The notes under the pieces: model-generated
The model's database searches: none
What the model saw: only the letters and a program-made list of their open reading frames with translations
What the model was told of the DNA's origin: nothing
Program-made: the position numbers and the translations under genes
Assembly (NCBI GenBank): GCA_903821875.1
Contig: CAIJMU010000016.1
Coordinates: 1-36,960 of the forward strand
Source of the DNA: an uncultured Spirochaetota bacterium
GTDB taxonomy: Bacteria; Spirochaetota; Spirochaetia; Treponematales; Rectinemataceae
DNA length: 36,960 nt
Direction of reading: 5' to 3'
In this document: positions 2,106-32,816 of the stretch, piece after piece
Layout: each line of letters starts with the position of its first letter
Position numbering within the stretch: the first letter of the stretch is position 1

Positions 2106-3725
2106 GTGAGCCCCCTGAAATTACCCATCGGCATCCAGAGCTTTGTGACCATGCGCAGCGAAGGCTACGTGTATATCGACAAGACGCCTTTCATTGCCCA
2201 GATGGCCAGCATGGGGAAGCCCTATTTCCTGTCCCGGCCCCGGCGCTTTGGAAAAAGCCTCCTCGTCGACACGATGGCGCAGGCTTTTTCCGGCAGGCGG
2301 GAGCTCTTCAGTGGCCTGTATCTGGACAGCCCTGAGTCTGGGTGGGACTGGTCGAAGACCCATCCGGTCATCAAGCTCAGCTTCGGTACGGGGAGCTATA
2401 AAAATGTGGACGAGTTGCGGCAGAGCCTTGCCTTTCAACTGGCCTCTAAAGCTAAAAAACTGGAGTTGCCGCCCCTTGAGGAGACCCTGCCGTCCTTGAC
2501 TCTCCGGGAATTGATAGAAGCTGCCTTCGAAAAGCACAAGGCTACTGTCGTGGTCCTGATCGACGAATACGACAAACCGATACTGGATGCCCTGCCTGAC
2601 ACCGAGCTTTCGACCCTCATGCGCACGGAGCTGCGGAGCTTCTACGGCATCCTCAAGGACGCCGATGAGTTCTTGCGCTTTGTTTTCCTCACCGGAGTCA
2701 GCAAGTTCAGCAAGGCCGGCGTCTTCAGCGGTCTGAACCAGCTCAACGACCTGACCCTCAACGATTACTTTGGCCCGATTTGCGGCTACACCCAGACTGA
2801 TGTGGACTCCATCTTCGCACCAATGCTAACCAAATTCAGCCCTGAAACCGTGCGCAGTTGGTACAATGGTTACAACTGGGGTGCCGAGGGCGTCTACAAT
2901 CCCTTTGACATACTTCAGCTGTGCTACCATCAACGACTTCACCCCTGGTGGTTCGAGACAGGCACGCCGAGCTTCCTGATCAAGATGATGAAGGAGCAGC
3001 CCCGGAGCCTGCCGGAACTGGACACATTGCAGATCGGTGCGGAGCTTTCCGACAGCTTCGAGCCCGAGACCATGAGCCTGCCGGTCATGCTGTTCCAGAC
3101 CGGCTATCTGACCATCAAAGAAGTCATCGACGATCCGGTGGAAGGCACCCGGTACCGCCTGGGCTTTCCAAATCTCGAAGTCCGCTCGGCCTTTTCCAGG
3201 CTCAGCCTGGATACATCCACCGGTGACAACAGCAATCCCACCACCAACCGCAACCGCTTGCGGGACATACTCGATGCAGGAGACAGCGAAGGCCTTCGCG
3301 AGCTTTTTACCGCCTTTTTCGCCTCCATTCCCCTGGATAATTACCGCAAGAACACTATTTCCAGTTATGAAGGCTTTTACGCCAGCGTGGTCTACGCCTA
3401 TTTTGCCAGCCTGGGACTGACGGTGATCCCCGAGGATGTGATGAACCGGGGGCGCATCGACCTCTCGGTGATCGGTCCCAAGGGCATCTGGATCTTCGAG
3501 TTCAAGGTGAAGGGGCTGGACAAGAGTGGCAACGAGGCTCCTCTTGCCCAGATTTTGCGGAAGAACTACGCCGCAAAATACCGCGGGCGGAAAGATGCCA
3601 CCGGTACGGTGCTGCCCCTGTACCAGATCGGGATCATCTTTGATGAAGTCGAACGCAACGTGGTGGGCTGGGATGTGGCAGATGCATCAGGCCGGATGCT
3701 GCCGCTTGCCTCCTCCACGACTTGA
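2106..3725 (+). CDS. AAA-ATPase-like protein with C-terminal PD-(D/E)XK nuclease domain
   Basis: This 539-residue protein matches the AAA-ATPase_like/DUF1703 architecture, a family very common in treponemes and Bacteroidetes. The N-terminus carries LPIGIQSF and a Walker A variant SRPRRFGKS with Lys50. Walker B is VVVLIDEYDKP with Asp153-Glu154. The C-terminus has a PD-(D/E)XK-like core: Asp452 in GRIDLSV and Glu465-x-Lys467 in IFEFKV, followed by a conserved QI-x3-YA-x2-Y helix. The start is GTG with no good ribosome site; Met16 is an alternative. Members are suspected to be mobile or defence-linked nucleases, but their substrate is not established. It sits just upstream of a toxin-antitoxin pair, which fits an accessory island. 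Confidence 0.88.
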   Translation: MSPLKLPIGIQSFVTMRSEGYVYIDKTPFIAQMASMGKPYFLSRPRRFGKSLLVDTMAQAFSGRRELFSGLYLDSPESGWDWSKTHPVIKLSFGTGSYKNVDELRQSLAFQLASKAKKLELPPLEETLPSLTLRELIEAAFEKHKATVVVLIDEYDKPILDALPDTELSTLMRTELRSFYGILKDADEFLRFVFLTGVSKFSKAGVFSGLNQLNDLTLNDYFGPICGYTQTDVDSIFAPMLTKFSPETVRSWYNGYNWGAEGVYNPFDILQLCYHQRLHPWWFETGTPSFLIKMMKEQPRSLPELDTLQIGAELSDSFEPETMSLPVMLFQTGYLTIKEVIDDPVEGTRYRLGFPNLEVRSAFSRLSLDTSTGDNSNPTTNRNRLRDILDAGDSEGLRELFTAFFASIPLDNYRKNTISSYEGFYASVVYAYFASLGLTVIPEDVMNRGRIDLSVIGPKGIWIFEFKVKGLDKSGNEAPLAQILRKNYAAKYRGRKDATGTVLPLYQIGIIFDEVERNVVGWDVADASGRMLPLASSTT

Positions 3726-3757: not shown

Positions 3758-3982
3758 ATGAGCACCGTCACAATCCACGAGGCGAAGGCTACCCTCTCAA
3801 AGCTGATCGAGAATGCCCTATCCGGTGAGGAGGTCATCATCGCCCGCCGCAACAAGGCCTTGGTGAGGCTTGTCGCCCTCGAACAGCCTGCTTCCCGGCG
3901 TACGATAGGTGCGGCGAAGGGGAAGATCAGGATGGGCCAAGATTTCGATGAGCTTCCCCCTGGATTCGAGGACTATGTCTGA
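3758..3982 (+). CDS. Phd/YefM-type antitoxin
   Basis: This 74-residue protein has the Phd/YefM N-terminal DNA-binding pattern: TIHEAKATLSKLIENALSGE, then EEVIIARRNKALVRLVAL. The C-terminal tail (GQDFDELPPGFEDY) is the usual toxin-wrapping segment. The stop codon overlaps the start of the next gene (TGATG), so translation is coupled. GGAG lies a few bases before the ATG. In this family the antitoxin blocks the PIN ribonuclease and represses its own promoter. Family call is firm; the specific partner is inferred from position. Confidence 0.9.
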   Translation: MSTVTIHEAKATLSKLIENALSGEEVIIARRNKALVRLVALEQPASRRTIGAAKGKIRMGQDFDELPPGFEDYV

Positions 3983-4371
3983 TGCGGATCCTGCTCGACA
4001 CGAAGGTCTTTCTCTGGATACTCACCGATGATGTTCGCCTCAGCGCTTCTGCCCGTCGATTGTATCTCGACGACTCGAACCAGCTCTTTCTGAGCATGGC
4101 CAGCCTCTGGGAAATGTTCATTAAAATTGGTACGGGAAAGCTCGAGATATCCGACCGAGACCCGGTCGGATATCTCCGGGCGCAGCTTGTTGAAAACGCA
4201 ATAGCGTTCTTGCCGATAACCTATGAGCAAGTCTCGGGATTGCCTGGACTACCGAAGCTCCATACGGATCCCTTCGATCGCCTCATCATCGCGCAGGCGC
4301 TTCATGAAGGACTGCCGATGCTTTCTTCGGATGCTATTTTTGCCGATTACGGTGTCCGTAACCTATTCTGA
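3982..4371 (+). CDS. VapC-type PIN-domain ribonuclease toxin
   Basis: This 129-residue protein follows the PIN toxin plan: Asp6 in LLDTKVFLW, Glu44 in SLWEM, Asp99 in DPFDRLIIAQA and Asp117 in SSDAIFADYG. All four metal-binding acidic residues expected for Mg-dependent RNA cleavage are present. Most relatives have LLDTHVFLW; here the His is Lys8, a small deviation outside the acidic quartet. It overlaps its antitoxin by one base. Residues 55-65 (EISDRDPVGYL) are encoded by a perfect inverted repeat (listed separately), unusual within a coding region. Likely intact. Confidence 0.9.
   Translation: MRILLDTKVFLWILTDDVRLSASARRLYLDDSNQLFLSMASLWEMFIKIGTGKLEISDRDPVGYLRAQLVENAIAFLPITYEQVSGLPGLPKLHTDPFDRLIIAQALHEGLPMLSSDAIFADYGVRNLF
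4144..4176. repeat. Perfect 13-bp inverted repeat inside the toxin gene
   Basis: GAGATATCCGACC (4144-4156) and its exact reverse complement GGTCGGATATCTC (4164-4176) flank a 7-bp spacer. The mRNA would form a strong hairpin in mid-gene. No T-tract follows. Confidence 0.85.
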
Positions 4372-19144: not shown

Positions 19145-19467
19145 CAGTCATCCTCCGGCCATCCAGCGTGCGACCGGCTCAACCCGGATCCGCGCTCCCT
19201 CGGCCTCGATAAACTCGCCTTCGCCTTCCTCGACCAAGAGGAGGGACTCCCCTGCTGACAGCCAGGGTTCTGCCTGGACGAATGACGCGGTGAGGGTCTG
19301 GCCGGGGTTGGCCAGGATATGGCGGGCGAGGTTTTCCACCACTGCTTGAACGGCCGCGAAGGGAAGGCCCCGAGCAGGCGGTCGGCGAGGTAGCGACGGG
19401 TGCCCTCGACACGCGTGATGCGGCACTGGTTTTCTTAGATGAGAGGAACCAAGGACTCGATTGGCAT
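19145..19467 (-). pseudogene. Decayed gene remnant of unknown family
   Basis: A start with a good ribosome site (AAAGGTGATAT, then ATG at 19467) reads MPIESLVPLI and then hits TAA. The frame continues as ENQCRITRVEGTRRYLADRLLGAFP. In another frame it continues as VVENLARHILANPGQTLTASF and EGEFIEAEGARIRVEPVARW up to about 19145. At least one stop and one frameshift break it. I do not recognise the parent protein. The 5' part is duplicated at 23674-23862. The rest of 19044-19648 shows no intact gene. Confidence 0.55.
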
Positions 19468-19494
19468 ATATCACCTTTGAAAGGGATGACAATG
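19351..19494 (-). repeat. Dispersed repeat, copy 1 (downstream of the SUMF1-like lipoprotein gene)
   Basis: The stretch 19372-19494 aligns without gaps to 23767-23889 over 123 bp with about 14 mismatches. Similarity extends to the CGGCCGCGAA at 19351. It covers the ribosome site and the first ~32 codons of the decayed gene. Confidence 0.8.
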
Positions 19495-19648
19495 GATGTT
19501 TTATCACTTTGCAAGGGGTCTTCGGGGGCAGGCGCTTGGACTGCGCGCGGACTGTCGAGTGGTATTGGCGGGAGGAAATAGGATGAAGTGCAGCGTCGAG
19601 TAACATCAAGGCGTGCAAATTTGAGTAGGGCTGTCCGCCCAAGCGAAA

Positions 19649-19695: not shown

Positions 19696-22600
19696 TCAGG
19701 GTGCCTTGCGCACCATGTGGAAGCCGATATCGATGTCGTTGCTATTTTGGTTCGAGTACGCGCCCCCATAAACCTTCTGACCCGCGCTCTGCCGGACGCC
19801 GGAACCGAGGAAGCGGAGATATCCGAAGGGGTTCTGGTAGCTTGTGGTGTCGTTGAGGTTCTGGGAGACACCTCCACCGCGCACGACGAAGGGAGTGACC
19901 TGGTAGCTGTCGATGGGCTGCTTGGTTGGGCCTTGCGGATCGACTAGGGGCGTGGACTGGGTGTAAGCATCCGTCGGGTAGGCGGCGTAGTAATCACTGC
20001 ACCACTCACGGGCGTTACCGAAGAGGTCATAGACCCCGTAGGCAGTGGGTTGCCTTCCTGTTTTCACTGGCTTGACGAGGAAGGTTGAGGTTGGATGGCC
20101 GCTAGTGGGTTCTGCATACCAGGCATAGGTCGCTACTGTTGCTACAAAGGTATTGTATCCCGCGCTGTCAATAGCACTACCTGGCGGGGTGCCCCAGGGG
20201 AAATCAGTTGTGGTAACGGTGCCAGGAGCCGCGTTGGTACTCGCCACGTCGCTTCGCGCCAGGAACTCGAACTCAGCCTCGGTGGGCAGGCGATAGCCGC
20301 TCTTGGTAAAGTCGCTTGTCATTGTCGAGGTGGACTGAGAGATCGTGTACACCTTGTCGAAGCCATCGCGTGCGGATAGCTCGTTGCAGAACTCCATCGC
20401 CTTGAAGATATTCACGCGGACTGGTTCATAGCCAGTCACCGAATCGGGAGTGGCGACATAGGCGTTATTCTTGGCGAACAAGCTGTCATTGTAGAGCCTC
20501 TGGGTAATCTCGGTTTCCGAAATAAGGAAAGGCGATACCTTGACCCAATGCACGGGCGTTGCGGACTTCATGTCGCTCAATGCTGCTTCTGCGCTGGCGC
20601 TGCCCATCTGGAAGGTGCCACCTGGTACAGGCAGCATGGTGAGTTCACTGCCACTGGAGACCCATGTGTGGTGAACAAGCACATTTAAATTGGAATAGGT
20701 ATCCAGATCTGCCGTCCAGACCTTGCTGTTGCTCGTGAAGGTTACATGGACCGCGGCTTGGACGTCAGTGGTCTCAGGCCGGGTCAGATGGATTGTCTTT
20801 CCATCCGTATCGACACTGATATAGTCTGCGGAGGTATGGGTCTTATCAGCGAGCTTCGTAGTCTTATCCACTGAATAGGTGAGCGTTACCTTGCTGATGT
20901 CCACGCTTGTTGGCAGGGTGCCCATACTACTTGATGTACTCCCAAGCTGGGATCCGCCTGTAGGGGCGACGAAGTCATCGTAGGCTGTCAAGACATTGCT
21001 ACTGGAGCCCGTTCCCGAGTTGTTGCCTCGAGTAACGTTCTTACCCGTCGGATTCGTCGCCGTCACGCCGGTTTTGAATATGAAGTCGGATGGATCGAGC
21101 AGGAACCAGCACCACATGATCCGTTCCCAGTCCGGGTCCTTGGCGAAGGTGATATTGAATGACTTATTGGCGAAATCGGTGGAATTGATGGCTGAATAGT
21201 CCGCGATATTTTTACCAGGCGCGGCGATCTTGGCAGTAAGGGTCATGGATTGGTCAGACCATCCCCCCTGGATATTGACAGTTTTCCCATCGGCATTGAG
21301 TGTGGCAGGTACGGGCGAATACGAAGCGGTAAGTTCCCACTTATAGCTAGATCCATATTCCCCTGAGACTGGAAGTTTGAATTCCGAGGCCGCTTTGAGC
21401 AACTTTTCGCCGTTATTTCCAGCGGAAAGGTTGGCACGGTCCACTGCTGACAGGGTGAATGCCTCGACCGTAAGCGCAGTCTTGTCTGCGGTGAATTTCT
21501 CGTAGGCAGTGGCCGCCCTTGCGATGATCGTAATATTCCAGGTCTTCGATACCGACTTGCCGTTTTTAGTAACCGTTGCCTTGATCCAGGAAACCTGGTC
21601 CTTGATGGTCTGGGAAGCGCCAACGTTGAACGTGCTTTGTGTGGTCGAGCCTGGAACCGGCATGTCTTTCGGGTAGAGCGACAGTACCGGCATCATGTTG
21701 GTGGTCGGTGCTGGCTCGACAGTCCATACTAGGACGCTGCCGTCAATAGTTCCATCGAGGGGGGAGCGCGAGAAACTGCTCTTGGCCGTAGTAGCGGTTT
21801 CGCCGCTGGTGAAAGCCAAGGAGGAGGTTCCGAGGACGGTCGAAGCCGCGAGGATGTCGGCATCGGTGATCTTGCTAATTGTGAGTGTCCAGGCCTTGGT
21901 CTGGCTTGTCGCCCCAGTCTTGGACACGGTGGCTGTAAGCGTCACTGCCTGGTCAGAGCCAGTCGCGACGAAGCTCGCGGTCCCGTCGCTGCCGAAATTC
22001 AGGGCAGTGGCAGGGCTGGCGCTCCAGGCGATGCTCACGCCATTGGCCAGTGGACTTGCAACCGGGGTTACCGTGAATGAGGAGACGAGGGCCGTGAGTG
22101 GCTCTCCGCTCGCGGGCTTGACCATGCAGGAAGCGAGGGCTGCGGCCAGCTCGGTAGATGCGGCGTTGGCCGCGCCCTTCACCTTGACCGAAACCGAGCC
22201 GGTGGCAGTCTGGGGCGTGGTTCCATCGACCTTGGTGACCACCGCATCGAGGGCCACTACCGTATCAACAGCCGGTGCAATCACAGTACATATATTCGTA
22301 ACTGGATCTATTGTAAGGATATCTGTTTTCGTGCTGGTCCAGGCAATGGTTGTACCGCGGTCACCCGCTGTTGGAAGCGTGAAGTTGCCGGTGATGCCAG
22401 CGGGACTGCCCGAGGTTGTTGCGGTAGAAAGCGCGGCCGTCACGATTTCGGGGATTGCCGCAGCATCATTCGTCACAGCTACCAGGGGGGTGACCGGAGG
22501 AATGGTAATCGTGATGGGATCCGGCTGTTTGGTCGGCTCGATGCTGGTCGCTGAAGTTGTCGCCGTGGCTCCCTTTTTTTTCTTGACCGTCGGCGTAAGG

Positions 22601-23277
22601 GTAGCTGTTGAGGCTGCGCTTCCCGTTGCTGGCGTAGTCACACTCACCTTGCCGCTGGAATCGATGGTGACACCCGTACCTGTTGAGGTCCAGGTGATTT
22701 CTGTACCGTAACTGCCGGAGAGCGGTAGGGAAAAACCCGCGGTGACTGCGGTTGCGCTATCCTTGCCGGAGAAGTCAAGTAGGTTGCCAGTCACTGCGGC
22801 AGCGACAAGGTTGGCCATGGCTGCATCCGAAGTTGGCGTGGCCACCGTGAAACTGAAATCCTTGGCAGCCCCATTCCCATCGACGGTCGCCTCGGTTCCT
22901 CGTGCCGCAACCGGCGTAGCCGTTGCGGTCAAAGTCGCCGTGGTATCTGCCGGAATGGGGTCCGGTATCCTTATAAATACCTGCCCCGACACCGGGTCGA
23001 TCTTGGTGACGAAGGGAGAGACTGAGGACCAGGAAAGCTTGAAAGCCTTGTCCTTGGTCTCAAGGGGTGCATAAAAGGAGCCTGATACGGCAGTCAGCGC
23101 GCCTCCACCGTCCTTGAAGTCGAACATGTCGAGGGTGAGTGCGTCATCCAGTGCTTGCTGAGCCTTTGTCCGGACATCAGTCGTACCGCCAGAGGGGACA
23201 GCCGGAGTGCAGGAAAGGGCAAGAAGAAGAGCGAGAGAGGCCAAGGGCAACAACGCCAGGGAATTGGTTTTAGGCAT
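19696..23277 (-). CDS. Large lipoprotein: Ig-like stalk plus SUMF1/FGE-like C-terminal domain
   Basis: The start at 23277 (GGAGG, then TTCCC, then ATG) gives 1193 residues. The signal is MPKTNSLALLPLASLALLLA with lipobox LLALSC, so Cys23 is lipidated. Residues about 24-880 hold at least four atypical Ig-like domains, with recurring 'ITWTSTGTGVTIDSSGKVSV' strands and a KKKKGAT linker. Residues about 881-1193 form a formylglycine-generating-enzyme-like fold (PVPGGTFQMGS, ISETEITQRLYN, RLPTEAEFEFLARS, GNAREWCSDYY, VVRGGG, GFHMVRK). No FGE catalytic Cys pair is evident, so it is more likely a binding or structural version. The N-terminal ~380 residues are paralogous to the next lipoprotein upstream. 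Probably surface exposed. Confidence 0.92.
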   Translation of the reverse strand: MPKTNSLALLPLASLALLLALSCTPAVPSGGTTDVRTKAQQALDDALTLDMFDFKDGGGALTAVSGSFYAPLETKDKAFKLSWSSVSPFVTKIDPVSGQVFIRIPDPIPADTTATLTATATPVAARGTEATVDGNGAAKDFSFTVATPTSDAAMANLVAAAVTGNLLDFSGKDSATAVTAGFSLPLSGSYGTEITWTSTGTGVTIDSSGKVSVTTPATGSAASTATLTPTVKKKKGATATTSATSIEPTKQPDPITITIPPVTPLVAVTNDAAAIPEIVTAALSTATTSGSPAGITGNFTLPTAGDRGTTIAWTSTKTDILTIDPVTNICTVIAPAVDTVVALDAVVTKVDGTTPQTATGSVSVKVKGAANAASTELAAALASCMVKPASGEPLTALVSSFTVTPVASPLANGVSIAWSASPATALNFGSDGTASFVATGSDQAVTLTATVSKTGATSQTKAWTLTISKITDADILAASTVLGTSSLAFTSGETATTAKSSFSRSPLDGTIDGSVLVWTVEPAPTTNMMPVLSLYPKDMPVPGSTTQSTFNVGASQTIKDQVSWIKATVTKNGKSVSKTWNITIIARAATAYEKFTADKTALTVEAFTLSAVDRANLSAGNNGEKLLKAASEFKLPVSGEYGSSYKWELTASYSPVPATLNADGKTVNIQGGWSDQSMTLTAKIAAPGKNIADYSAINSTDFANKSFNITFAKDPDWERIMWCWFLLDPSDFIFKTGVTATNPTGKNVTRGNNSGTGSSSNVLTAYDDFVAPTGGSQLGSTSSSMGTLPTSVDISKVTLTYSVDKTTKLADKTHTSADYISVDTDGKTIHLTRPETTDVQAAVHVTFTSNSKVWTADLDTYSNLNVLVHHTWVSSGSELTMLPVPGGTFQMGSASAEAALSDMKSATPVHWVKVSPFLISETEITQRLYNDSLFAKNNAYVATPDSVTGYEPVRVNIFKAMEFCNELSARDGFDKVYTISQSTSTMTSDFTKSGYRLPTEAEFEFLARSDVASTNAAPGTVTTTDFPWGTPPGSAIDSAGYNTFVATVATYAWYAEPTSGHPTSTFLVKPVKTGRQPTAYGVYDLFGNAREWCSDYYAAYPTDAYTQSTPLVDPQGPTKQPIDSYQVTPFVVRGGGVSQNLNDTTSYQNPFGYLRFLGSGVRQSAGQKVYGGAYSNQNSNDIDIGFHMVRKAP

Positions 23278-23282
23278 GGGAA

Positions 23283-23375
23283 CCTCCGGGCAGCATCGTA
23301 TAACAAGCTCCAGCACTGTGTGGGGGGGGGGAAACCCTCATTCCAGCCGATGCTTCCGTCAGGGAAATCAGACTC
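23283..23375 (-). promoter_or_regulatory. Conserved leader/promoter region with C10 tract
   Basis: This leader is clearly related to that at 27147-27235. Shared parts, reading toward the gene, are TTTCCCTG-x-CG, AAGCATCGGC, GGAATGAGGGTTTCCCC, TATACGAT and GGAGG. TATACGAT (23295-23302) sits 25 bases from the ATG in both copies and is the best -10 candidate. A run of ten G:C pairs lies just upstream of it. No consensus -35 is seen. Confidence 0.55.
23322..23331. repeat. 10-bp G:C homopolymer upstream of the SUMF1-like lipoprotein gene
   Basis: Ten consecutive G on the plus strand (C10 on the coding strand), 45-54 bases before the start codon. The paralogous leader has only five G at the same place. 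Such tracts are prone to slippage. Confidence 0.9.
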
Positions 23376-23747: not shown

Positions 23748-23862
23748 CGGCCGCGAAAGAAGGTCCGAGCAGGCAGTTGACGAGGCAGCAACGCGTGCCC
23801 CCGACACGCGTGATACTGCTCTGGTTTTCATGGATGAGAGGAACAAAGGACTCGATTGGCAT
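23674..23862 (-). pseudogene. Decayed gene remnant, second copy
   Basis: A 62-codon frame starts at 23862 behind the same AAAGGTGATAT ribosome site and reads MPIESFVPLIHENQSSITRV before diverging from copy 1. Differences between copies fall at all codon positions and change many residues, which argues against selection. Family unknown; a real short peptide is possible but less likely. Confidence 0.5.
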
Positions 23863-23889
23863 ATATCACCTTTGAAAGGGATGATAATG
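23748..23889 (-). repeat. Dispersed repeat, copy 2 (downstream of the propeller lipoprotein gene)
   Basis: Partner of 19351-19494: 123 bp align without gaps at roughly 89% identity by my count. Both copies lie shortly beyond the terminator of a large lipoprotein gene in the same orientation. Confidence 0.8.
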
Positions 23890-23961
23890 CAGGATTTTTC
23901 CCTTTACATGGGGATGTTGCGGGGGGCTGGCCGCGGTGACCCACCCCTCTGGTGTGCAAAA

Positions 23962-23997
23962 AAGAACCCGGGAGGAGAAAATCCTTCCCGGGTTCTT
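23962..23997 (-). terminator. Rho-independent terminator of the propeller lipoprotein gene
   Basis: Arms AAGAACCCGGGA (23962-23973) and TCCCGGGTTCTT (23986-23997) pair perfectly, with three more pairs near the loop. On the minus strand TTTT follows. It begins about 17 bp after the stop. Confidence 0.9.
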
Positions 23998-24014: not shown

Positions 24015-27000
24015 TTAGGGCGCAATCACACGCCGTATGACAGAGCTGGTTGTATCGGTCACGTAGACCGCAGGACTACCCGAGACGGTTTCGCCAAGGG
24101 CGATAGCGCCTGGATTGAAATACGCTGCGGAGCCGGCACCACCGGTGACTGCGGTGACATTGTACATGCCTCCAGCCAGGCGGTTCCAGGCCAGGGTCGT
24201 CGGGTTGTACCTGAAGACGCAATTCGAGGCATATGCGTTGGAGTAGCTTGTGCTTTTGGGAGTCGCCACGTTCGCGTTCGCAAGGAAGTACAGGTTGGTC
24301 CCGTCATTGGCGAGTCCGTAGTAACCGCTGGTTGTTGCGCGCCACAGGTCGGCTGTCGCATCGCGGCGCAGGTAGCCCATGTCACCGGTCGCGTTGCTAT
24401 TGCTGGCGTTGGCCGGATCGATCGAAAAGAGGTTGCTGCCAGCAGTCGCATAGAGCTTGCCGCCCATGAAGGTCATCGAGTTGACGAAGGATAAGGCGCT
24501 GGAATAGGTCCAGGAACTATCATAGTTGGTCTTTGATGCGGATGGTGCGAGCACCCCTATGAAACCGGTATACGTGTAGTCCTGCGTACTCCTGGCTGAC
24601 CATTGAGCTATATACAGTTTGGTTCCGTCATTGGTCATGGCCTGGGCCGAGACTCCGCCATACATGGTTATGGCCGATGCGATCGCATAGCTGTTCGAGG
24701 GATCGATGGAATAGATGCGGTAGTTGGGCGAACTCGAGCTGTACACATACACATAGAGCTTGCCTGCCATGAAAGTCATCGCCTGGACTTCGGAGAAATA
24801 CGTCGCGGCGGCCGTGCTGGTGAGCACGGTCGTCACGGTGGGAGTGGCGCCCTGCGTGACCTTCCTGATGGCCTGGAAGTAGGAACTCGAGCCACTCTTG
24901 TAATACTCGGCCACGTACAGGCAGGAGTTGGCGCTGTCATAGGCTATGGCATTCGGAATCTGGAAGCTCGCGCTCGTCCCGGATCCATCGGCGACTCCCT
25001 TGGTCCCGACCGTGCCCGCGACGGTCGAAGCGGTCCAGGTTGGCTGCCACTGGGCATAGAGCGTGACGTCAGCGGTGGTGCCGCCCGACGGAAAGCCATT
25101 CTCGGTCGCGCCGTTCACGCCGCTGCCATCGGCCTTGGTGTTCCATCCACCCCATTCCTGGGTCGCCGAAGGAGGCGTGAAGGTCGAAACGGAGGCACCG
25201 ACATAGCCATACGCATAGGAGGGATTGAATCCTTGCTTGGCCATCGCCGCGCCGCTGCCGCCGTTGGCATCGAAGGTGATGAGGTAGCCCCACTGCGCAT
25301 AGGCAATGGGGACAGCGCTTGCATAGACTTGCGTGCCGGCCTGGTAGTAACTGCTGGTGCTGCTGGCCGCAGAGCTCGCGCTCCAACCCAGGAAGGTCTT
25401 GCCCGTAGGAGCCGTGAAGGTGGAGGTCGGCAGGGTTGCCTGCGTCCCGCTCACGACAATCGAAGCCATGGTACCTGTGCCGGTGTTGGCATTGAAGGCC
25501 ACCGTAGAGCCCCACTGCGCGTAAAGCGCCATGTTGGAGCTGAGTCCGGCCGAGATTGTAGCGCCGGCAGCATAGGCGGTGCCCGTCCCGTCGGCAACCG
25601 TGTTCCATCCTCCAAAGGTTTTACCTGAAGGTGCAGTGAAGGTGTTGGTGGAAAGGGTAAGGGCCACGGCAATGACAGCCGTCTGGGAAGCCATGGTTCC
25701 CGATCCGGTATTCGAGTTGAAGCTGACCGTGTAGATGACCGGGAAAACCCACTGCGCGTAGAGGGTCAAGTTGGCTGTCACACCGGTGATCGTCGCTCCT
25801 GCGGTGTATGCGGTACCTGTTCCCGCAGCGACCGTGTTCCAGCCACTTAAGACCTTGCCGGTCGGAGCGATGTATGTGTTGGTGGAAAGCGTCGCCGAGG
25901 CGGCCGAAGCCACGGTCTGCGCGGTCATCGTGCCCGTCCCCGTGTTGGCGTCGAAGGTGATGGTGTAGTTAGTTCCAGTAGATGCGCTGCCCCCCTTCAC
26001 CTTGACCGTGACCGTGCCCTTCGTGGGCGTTGTGCTGGTGGTGCCGGGCTTGGTTACATCGGCCGTGAGCGTCACTGTCGTATCTACCGCCTTGGGGCTA
26101 ACCGCTACGGTACAGGCTGTCGGGGTCTGGGCAACCGTACAGACAGTGGCATCGGAGGAGGTCCATGTAAGGGTGGTGCCCCGATCGCCTAGGACGGGCA
26201 GGGCGAAGCCGTCAGTGATGGCGCTGAGATTGCCTGATGCGGGGGTTGCCGCGAGGGCGCTTGCCACGATATCCGGCAGGGCGTCTAGGTCCTTGGTGAC
26301 CGCAATGTCGGGAGTGACGGGAGGGATGCTGATGGAGATCGCCGCCGGTTGCGTCGTGGGGCTGACGGTCGTCGCACCCTTCTTCTTCTTGACGGTGGGA
26401 GTGAGCGTCGCTGTCGACGCTGCGCTTCCGCTGGGGGTGGTGACTGTCACCTTGCCGGTGCTCTGGTCAAAGGTCACGCCGTCGCCGGTCACTGCCCAGG
26501 TGATTTCAGAGTCGAAGCTGCCCGTCTTCGGCAGCTTGAAACTTCCTGTGACGGCGCTTGCGCTGTCAGCGCCGGAAAAGTCGAGCAGATTGCCGCTGAC
26601 AGCGGTGGCGACTGCGTCCGCCATGGCCTGATCCGTGAGGTCAGAGGCTACGGTAAAATTGAAGTCCTTGGTGGCGCCGTCCGTGGTAGCGGTGGCGTCA
26701 ACCCTGCTGGCCTTGGCTGGAGTGGCCGTCACTGACAGTGTGAGCGTCGAATTAGCGGGGACTGGGTCTGGAAGATTCAGGAAGACCTGTCCTGAGACGG
26801 GATCGATCTTGCTTATGAAGGTGGAACTCGAGGACCAGCTCAGCTTCCATGCCTTATCGGCTGTCATCGTCGGAGCGACGAAAGAAGAGGTCAATGACGT
26901 AGGTGCCTGACCCGCGGCTACTCCCGGAAAGCTGAATTGGCTTAAATCCAGCGCGTCGAGCGACTTCTGGGCAGTGGTGCGTGTATCAGGAGTGCCTGGA

Positions 27001-27089
27001 TCCACCGCCGGCGTGCAGCCTAGACTCAGGGCACTGATAAGCAATGAAAGCAAGCTTATTGAAAGTAGCCTGCTATATTTCCCACGCAT
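24015..27089 (-). CDS. Large lipoprotein: Ig-like stalk, InlB repeats, propeller-like C-terminus
   Basis: This 1024-residue protein starts at 27089 (AGGAGG, then ACAAC, then ATG). The signal MRGKYSRLLSISLLSLLISA ends in lipobox ALSLGC, so Cys25 is lipidated. Residues about 26-385 are Ig-like domains paralogous to those of the SUMF1-like lipoprotein (same CTPAV start, KKKKGAT linker and IPPVTP segment). Four InlB B-type repeats follow (each with a FxxNTGTGTM-like start, GWNT and YAQW). The last ~320 residues resemble an NHL/SMP-30-like propeller: TVAGTVGTKGVADGSG, IPNAIAYDSANSCLYVAEY, GKLYVYVYSS and a final VYVTDTTSSVIRRV. It is probably a surface ligand-binding or adhesion protein. Confidence 0.92.
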   Translation of the reverse strand: MRGKYSRLLSISLLSLLISALSLGCTPAVDPGTPDTRTTAQKSLDALDLSQFSFPGVAAGQAPTSLTSSFVAPTMTADKAWKLSWSSSSTFISKIDPVSGQVFLNLPDPVPANSTLTLSVTATPAKASRVDATATTDGATKDFNFTVASDLTDQAMADAVATAVSGNLLDFSGADSASAVTGSFKLPKTGSFDSEITWAVTGDGVTFDQSTGKVTVTTPSGSAASTATLTPTVKKKKGATTVSPTTQPAAISISIPPVTPDIAVTKDLDALPDIVASALAATPASGNLSAITDGFALPVLGDRGTTLTWTSSDATVCTVAQTPTACTVAVSPKAVDTTVTLTADVTKPGTTSTTPTKGTVTVKVKGGSASTGTNYTITFDANTGTGTMTAQTVASAASATLSTNTYIAPTGKVLSGWNTVAAGTGTAYTAGATITGVTANLTLYAQWVFPVIYTVSFNSNTGSGTMASQTAVIAVALTLSTNTFTAPSGKTFGGWNTVADGTGTAYAAGATISAGLSSNMALYAQWGSTVAFNANTGTGTMASIVVSGTQATLPTSTFTAPTGKTFLGWSASSAASSTSSYYQAGTQVYASAVPIAYAQWGYLITFDANGGSGAAMAKQGFNPSYAYGYVGASVSTFTPPSATQEWGGWNTKADGSGVNGATENGFPSGGTTADVTLYAQWQPTWTASTVAGTVGTKGVADGSGTSASFQIPNAIAYDSANSCLYVAEYYKSGSSSYFQAIRKVTQGATPTVTTVLTSTAAATYFSEVQAMTFMAGKLYVYVYSSSSPNYRIYSIDPSNSYAIASAITMYGGVSAQAMTNDGTKLYIAQWSARSTQDYTYTGFIGVLAPSASKTNYDSSWTYSSALSFVNSMTFMGGKLYATAGSNLFSIDPANASNSNATGDMGYLRRDATADLWRATTSGYYGLANDGTNLYFLANANVATPKSTSYSNAYASNCVFRYNPTTLAWNRLAGGMYNVTAVTGGAGSAAYFNPGAIALGETVSGSPAVYVTDTTSSVIRRVIAP

Positions 27090-27116: not shown

Positions 27117-27143
27117 CTAAGAAGGATCCTGGTTTTTAGTCAT
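27117..27143 (-). other. Eight-codon relict start upstream of the propeller lipoprotein gene
   Basis: Behind GGAGG and five bases, an ATG at 27143 reads MTKNQDPS and stops. Its first bases (ATG-ACT-AAA-AAC-CAG) match the true start of the SUMF1-like paralogue (ATG-CCT-AAA-ACC-AAT), and its distance to the conserved TATACGAT is identical (25 bases). It is either a dead ancestral start or a short regulatory upstream ORF. Confidence 0.6.
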
Positions 27144-27146
27144 GTG

Positions 27147-27235
27147 ACCCTCCGGTGATCATCGTATATCGAGCCACAAGGCTGCGGAGGAGGGGGAAAC
27201 CCTCATTCCTGCCGATGCTTTCGGCAGGGAAATTT
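27147..27235 (-). promoter_or_regulatory. Conserved leader/promoter region of the propeller lipoprotein gene
   Basis: Homologous to 23283-23375. It contains a perfect hairpin, CCTGCCGA-5-TCGGCAGG (27208-27228), which is imperfect in the paralogue, then GAATGAGGGTTTCCCCC, TATACGAT (27161-27168) and GGAGG. It could be promoter plus activator site or a structured RNA; I cannot match it to a known riboswitch. The remaining 27236-27429 shows nothing certain. Confidence 0.5.
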
Positions 27236-30761: not shown

Positions 30762-31925
30762 ATGAAGATACACGAGTACCAGGGCAAGGAACTCTTTGCG
30801 AAGTACGGAGTTCCGGTGCCAAAAGGCGGCTCGGCCTTCGATGTGGAGAGTGCCGTAAAGGTCGCCGAGTCCATCGGAAGCTGGCCTGTGGTCGTGAAGG
30901 CGCAGATCCACGCGGGCGGCCGCGGCAAGGGTGGAGGCGTCAAGCTCGCCAAGAACATCGATGAGGCGAGGGCGCACATCAAGGATATCCTCGGCATGAC
31001 CCTCGTGACCAAGCAGACCGGTCCCAAGGGGCGCCTTGTCAAGCGCCTCCTCGTGGAGGCGGGCTGCAACATCGAGCGGGAGCTCTACCTCGGCATCCTG
31101 CCCGACCGCGAGACGGGCATGCACCTGATCATGGCCAGCGCGGCTGGCGGCATGGAGATCGAGGAAGTCGCCGAGCACAGCCCCGAGAAGATCGTCAAGG
31201 TCTACGTAGACCCTTCTTCGGGACTGCTGGACTTCCAGGCCCGCGAAGTGGCTGTCGGCCTCGGGCTACCAGCTGCCGCCACAAGGCAGTTCCTCACAAT
31301 GCTGAAGAACCTCTTCCGTCTCTACCTCGATTACGACGCTTCCATGGTCGAGATCAATCCCCTCGTACTGACTGCCGACAACCAGGTGCTCGCGCTCGAC
31401 GCCAAGATCGATGTCGATTCCAACTCCCTGTACCGGCACCCCGATATTCTCGAATATCGGGATGTCGAGGAGGAGGATCCCCACGAGGTCGAGGCCTTCA
31501 AGTACGACCTGGCCTACATCAAGCTTGACGGCGGCAACGTGGGCAACCTCGTCAACGGGGCGGGCCTCGCCATGGCCACGATGGACGCCATCAAGGCAGC
31601 GGGGGCGGTTCCGGCCAACTTCCTTGACGTCGGCGGTGGCGCCAACGCCGAGAAGATCGCCAACGCATTCCGCATCCTTTTGTCCGACTCCAATATCAAG
31701 GGAATACTGATCAACATTTTCGGAGGAATCCTCCGCTGCGACACCCTGGCCAATGGCGTCGTGCAGGCAGCCAAGGCGACAGAGCTCTCCGTGCCCCTGG
31801 TGGTCCGCATGGAAGGCACCAATGTCGAGGAGGGCCGGCGCATCCTGGCGGAATCCGGCCTCAAGATGACCACGGCCACCACCCTGACCGATGCCGCGCA
31901 GAAGATTGCCGCGGCCGTCAAGTAA
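30762..31925 (+). CDS. sucC: Succinyl-CoA synthetase beta subunit
   Basis: This 387-residue ATP-grasp protein has the family N-terminus [20 protein letters not shown]. The nucleotide-binding segment [20 protein letters not shown] and the C-terminal [16 protein letters not shown] block follow. The length equals that of the E. coli subunit (388). With SucD it interconverts succinyl-CoA plus ADP/GDP and succinate plus nucleoside triphosphate. GAGGGG lies six bases before the ATG. Its place right after sdhB suggests a succinate-centred branch. Confidence 0.97.
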
Positions 31926-31943
31926 GATGAGAGGGAAGCAACT

Positions 31944-32816
31944 ATGAGCATCTTCACCAAGGAACCCGTGCGCCTCATCGTCCAGGGCATCACCGGCAAG
32001 GACGGATTTTTCCACACGCAGAAGTGCGCCGAATACGGCACCAATGTAGCCGGCGGCGTCACCCCCGGGAAGGGCGGCGAAAAGGCCGGCGACTGGCCAA
32101 TCTACAACTCCGTGCGCGAAGCCCGGACAGCCACCAAAGCCAATGCCACAATGATATTCGTGCCGCCGGCCTTCGCCGCTGACGCTATCATGGAAGCCGC
32201 CGAGGCAGGCATCGAACTGATCGTGTGTATCACCGAGGGCATCCCGATCATGGATATGATGCGGGCCAAGCGCTTCCTTGCCGACAAGAAGAGCCGCCTC
32301 ATCGGTCCCAATTGCCCTGGTATCATTACCCCCGGTGAGTACAAGATCGGCATCCAGCCGGGCTTTATTCACACCCCCGGTGGCCCCATCGGCGTCGTCT
32401 CGCGTTCAGGCACCCTCACCTATGAGTCGGTCTATGCCCTAACCCAGGCGGGCTATGGCCAGACCACCTGCGTCGGTATCGGCGGCGACCCCGTCAACGG
32501 CACAAACTTCATAGACTGCCTCGAGGCCTTCAACGCCGACGCGAAAACTACCGGCATCGTGATGGTCGGCGAAATCGGCGGCAACAACGAGGAAAAGGCC
32601 GCAGCCTACATCAAGGCGAACATAAAGAAACCAGTAATTGGTTTTATCGCGGGAATCACTGCCCCGCCCGGCCGTCGCATGGGCCACGCAGGCGCCATCG
32701 TGAGCGGCAACTCAGGCACGGGGCAGGGCAAGCTCACGGCATTCCGGGAGAATGGTATAGTCGTCTGCGAAAACCTCGGGGAGCTGGGGGCGATAGCGAA
32801 GAGGACTTTCGGGTAG
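31944..32816 (+). CDS. sucD: Succinyl-CoA synthetase alpha subunit
   Basis: This 290-residue subunit has the CoA-binding Rossmann part ([14 protein letters not shown]) and the conserved [12 protein letters not shown]. The phosphohistidine is His248 in [12 protein letters not shown]. It partners the SucC subunit 18 bp upstream; AGAGGGAAG precedes the ATG. The downstream gap of 82 bp holds no clear terminator. Confidence 0.97.

Follow-up and report, generated by a model that had tools for sequence, protein, structure and literature searches.

The window, a stretch of 36,960 nucleotides from the draft genome of an uncultured Spirochaetota bacterium, carries two neighbouring lipoprotein genes that are paralogous to each other (Table 1). 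The 1193-aa protein has a signal peptide with Cys23, aBig_2 domains and a C-terminal FGE-sulfatase domain (Pfam), and Cys23, at the lipobox position, is invariant across ten paralogues. About ten paralogues of this lipoprotein family were found in the one genome, and a block is common to both window leaders, which bears out the duplicated lipoprotein leader described in an earlier interpretation of the locus (hereafter the sequence-only reading). When an N-terminal profile was searched against 294 genomes of the order, the whole profile matched in the source genome only; the 293 other genomes held no full-length family relative, the other matches covering single parts of the profile, and a protein search of genome contigs returned no relative. 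The family appears to be lineage-specific, so far known from one species only. A 149-nt repeat (86% identical, with no clearly conserved reading frame) stands 3' of each window lipoprotein gene (19370-19518 and 23765-23913), and because it follows both genes, the duplicated unit seems to have comprised leader, gene and 3' module. A diversity-generating retroelement, prompted by the FGE-type C-terminus, was dropped, as the one repeat nearby falls outside the gene.

The host had been taken for a spirochaete, and this agrees with the presence of FlaA in the genome, the FlaA family being absent from all 14 control genomes. Succinyl-CoA ligase subunits are encoded elsewhere in the window (30762-32816). 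The first of them matches one MAG at 89% and otherwise mainly sulfate-reducing Deltaproteobacteria (~62-68% identity), suggesting, since these are mainly its nearest relatives, that the ligase was horizontally transferred into the source spirochaete.

Table 1. Features of the two lipoprotein genes and their leaders in the window
Feature	Position	Strand	Basis
1193-aa lipoprotein gene, downstream of the tract	19696-23277	-	Translation, Pfam
Shine-Dalgarno CGGAGG of the 1193-aa gene	23283-23288	-	Sequence
TATACGAT, probable -10 element	23295-23302	-	Common to the paralogue leader; -10-like hexamer equally far from the box in five leaders
C10 homopolymer (G10 on +)	23322-23331	-	Coding strand of the 1193-aa lipoprotein gene
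Conserved box GAGGGTTTCC, probable regulator-binding site	23330-23339	-	In 5/8 other paralogue leaders, exact or with one mismatch
Strong intrinsic terminator ending the upstream paralogue gene	23958-23995	-	Fold -28.8 kcal/mol, z -6.1, T6 tail
Paralogous 1024-aa lipoprotein gene, neighbour of the 1193-aa gene	24015-27089	-	
TATACGAT of the paralogue leader	27161-27168	-	
C5 of the paralogue leader, then TCCTCC	27192-27196	-	
GAGGGTTTCC box of the paralogue leader	27195-27204	-	

On the coding strand, the leader of the 1193-aa gene reads, spaced by element, GAGGGTTTCC-CCCCCCCC-ACACAGTGCTGGAGCTTGT-TATACGAT-GCTGCC-CGGAGG-TTCCC-ATG. C10 is the sole homopolymer of at least 9 in the whole window. 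Its two leading Cs also form the end of GAGGGTTTCC, and 19 bases separate it from the downstream TATACGAT; the sequence-only reading was thus right to place a 10-bp homopolymer between two conserved blocks, about 20 bases upstream of the second, and its count of only five Cs in the paralogous leader also holds. C10 overlaps the -35 position at its upstream margin, and the predicted transcription start lies ~30 bases downstream of it. The paralogue leader reads GAGGGTTTCC-CCC-TCCTCC..., and its CCCCCTCCTCC occupies the same spacer as C10. The distance from the box to TATACGAT is 37 in the tract-bearing leader and 36 in the paralogue with its interrupted C-rich stretch, and the long tract is found in only one of the ten paralogues. 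An uninterrupted C-rich spacer and an expanded repeat would suit these leaders to much the same degree; the most economical history is a C-rich spacer whose T interruptions were lost or never present, with expansion a possible alternative. In the paralogue, an 8-codon mini-ORF (MTKNQDPS*, 27117-27143, minus strand) that has a ribosome site of its own now begins at the ancestral start codon; the real start lies 27 bases past the ancestral one and has a second ribosome site.

The box was defined on the two window genes and tested in the leaders of the other eight paralogues, up to 150 bases from the start. It was found exactly in three of the eight and within one mismatch in five, several of these leaders being duplication pairs, so that the counts are not independent (order-1 resamples average 0.004 exact and 0.08 within one mismatch, and 0/4000 reached the observed counts). 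The sequence flanking the box is near chance, with 15-40% gapless identity between most leader groups; similarity above this level persists immediately upstream of the box only in the recent window pair (72%) and in the C106 and C51 comparisons (42-47%). Judged from these comparisons, the GAGGGTTTCC box is under constraint, because it has been kept where most of the DNA beside it has drifted to identities near chance. Its consensus is (G/A)AGGGTTTC(C/T), at ~ -50 to -41. In five leaders a -10-like hexamer starts 36-38 bases after the box start, at positions 37-39 if the first base of the box is counted as 1, with 22 of 30 hexamer positions matching (a fraction of 5e-5 of shuffles reach 22, for leaders that are related by descent); the element is TATAAT in one paralogue and TATACGAT in the tract-bearing copy. 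The distance from box to start codon is 62, 63 and 64 in three leaders (by script) and 61 in a fourth, counted by eye to the ancestral start codon of the paralogue. In the box-bearing C80 and C147 leaders the first box is not followed at the standard distance by a TATAAT-like hexamer; this spacing is found only between a second, looser box and CATAGT/CACAGT. In these two leaders (G000:C80 and G000:C147; L108 ~3897-3990, L109 ~3529-3620) the boxes are in tandem ~25 bases apart, GAGGGTTTCC being followed by GGGGTATGCC or GAGGGTATTC, and in C147 the second box, GAGGG-TATTC-CCCTC, is nearly palindromic. Searching the whole genome for the box together with TATNNT gave the two C51 leaders and two further sites, and no others. 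Across the other genomes of the taxonomic family the box pattern gave scattered matches only, and the leader DNA had no match in 29 other genomes of that family.

No recognisable -35 was seen in the leader, and no sigma-70 consensus match was found on the minus strand between the two window genes. The upstream gene is ended by a strong terminator, and the tract-bearing gene therefore needs its own promoter. From the -10-like element, the box in five of eight other leaders, the fixed distances and the terminator upstream, we infer that the leader is probably a promoter region, as the sequence-only reading had held, and that a regulator would bind the box. The reading that we favour, with a probability of about 0.6, is that C10 forms the C-rich spacer within a promoter (box plus -10-like element) used by this lineage-specific lipoprotein family. 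Most likely, the regulator would bind the box and help RNA polymerase at the -10. The spacer of the tract-bearing copy is now an uninterrupted C10, able in principle to slip. The departures in the C80 and C147 leaders, the pairing of leaders by duplication and the few sites returned for the box with TATNNT weigh against this reading. The promoter is probably functional at present, since the current tract length lies within the spacing range of the family. A one-base change would keep the spacing in this range of 36-38; larger changes would exceed it, so that slippage could plausibly modulate transcription.

The whole genome (4.68 Mb, draft, 193 contigs) contains 13 G/C runs of at least 10, and the closest genome compared, of the same genus, also contains 13 in 3.8 Mb. 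Simulations trained on 174 kb of the source genome gave 31-36 such runs at order 0-1 and ~5-6 at order 2 and 4 (the order-3 simulation, which was noisy, gave none), and ~0.04-0.28 runs are expected per window. The runs are dispersed, with several inside apparent housekeeping ORFs (MiaB-like, HMG-CoA-reductase-like and permease-like, names taken from reading the translations), one in a proline-rich lipoprotein and others intergenic. Two of the 13 lie in or before lipoprotein genes, and the concentration at surface genes that is usual in phase variation, though not defining, was not seen. Taken alone, the C10 run is nothing unusual for this genome; the conserved block around it exceeds chance by far. 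Judged by length, two other runs are better candidates for slippage than the C10 of the window: one of 15 close to the 5' end of a long open frame (G000:C76:2838-2852) and one of 12 immediately ahead of a 220-aa frame (G000:C87:4897-4908).

These counts bear on the idea of a contingency locus, in which fast slippage of C10 shifts the distance from the box-bound regulator to the -10, raises or lowers transcription by this shift and so switches the lipoprotein on and off, which we consider rather unlikely. Promoter phase variation calls for a long homopolymer within or next to a promoter, and C10 has this position in the putative promoter, between the conserved box and the -10-like element and before a lipoprotein gene. 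There are precedents in T. pallidum tpr and tp0126 (PMC7864442) and in meningococcal nadA (PMC2791445), and the 13 observed runs exceed the 5-6 of the order-2 and order-4 models. Against it stand the long tract in one paralogue out of ten, the paralogue spacing of 36 versus 37 despite an interrupted tract, and the ordinariness of runs of such length in the genome and its sister, also in apparent housekeeping genes. The presence of MutS in the genome makes a high overall rate of slippage less likely; it is no proof against slippage, because T. pallidum also carries MutS. The sequence-only proposal of promoter phase variation is supported in its setting (a duplicated leader, a probable promoter, a tract in the spacer and a spirochaete host) and not in its varying or switching, given the near-equal paralogue spacing, the lack of another long tract in the family and the ordinary runs.

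A neutral origin, in which C10 arose by chance in a C-rich spacer that tolerates it, plays no part in regulation, and the box acts otherwise (in RNA or as a recombination site, for example), would agree with the near-chance run frequency and with the TCCTCC that the paralogue tolerates in the same place. We regard it as quite unlikely, as it leaves the fixed distances from the box to the -10-like hexamer and to the start codon unexplained, and the leader matches no Rfam family (even a permissive search gave just three weak matches near the genes, all below the gathering score). The true tract length could differ from ten through an artefact of the draft assembly of 193 contigs, homopolymers being error-prone in some assemblies, but this is very improbable with a paralogue spacer almost equally long and other runs of at least 10 sitting in ORFs that remain intact. 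Translational switching from an upstream ATG in GAATGAGGG, which by the computed frames is in frame with the lipoprotein at C9 or C12 and not at C10, is hardly credible, because this ATG lacks a good ribosome site, lies over the box and ahead of the predicted transcript start and does not occur in the C51 and C106 leaders, and the main ATG has a good ribosome site of its own.

With C10 read as a promoter spacer, the locus appears to hold a real, lineage-specific promoter module whose spacer may be slippage-prone in one copy. A more elaborate scheme, in which one family member gained stochastic switching through a slipping C10 and a shared regulator runs the ~ten lipoproteins through GAGGGTTTCC, is quite doubtful. 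If the tract slips, promoter-spacing phase variation would extend to a spirochaete beyond the described treponeme loci, and the locus would show how a single copy of a gene family acquires a switch. Even without slippage, the box would provide a route to the regulator behind a large family of lipoproteins.

The promoters of T. pallidum tpr and tp0126 are similar in that a G/C homopolymer of ~7-11 lies in the promoter region of an envelope-protein gene of a spirochaete. For tprL, 7-11 G were measured and reporter activity depends on tract length (PMC7864442). Tract variation and a reporter effect were thus measured there, whereas the present tract is a candidate and lies further upstream, beside a conserved box; the gene downstream of C10, with its aBig_2 and FGE-sulfatase domains, is not a Tpr. 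In N. meningitidis opc, as described in PMC7864442, a poly-C at the -35 position is proposed to act through regulator binding. The likeness is the poly-C in the promoter, at the -35 position; variation and expression effects are documented for opc in that description, and we claim no sequence relationship. In meningococcal nadA, the operators of a known repressor (NadR) flank the repeat tract, and the spacing of distal elements matters (PMC2791445). There, as in the layout proposed here, a repeat tract sets the distance from a regulator site to the promoter, although NadR is a known regulator and the protein binding our box is putative. As a resemblance in design only, the layout here appears closer to that of nadA than to the T. 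pallidum promoters.
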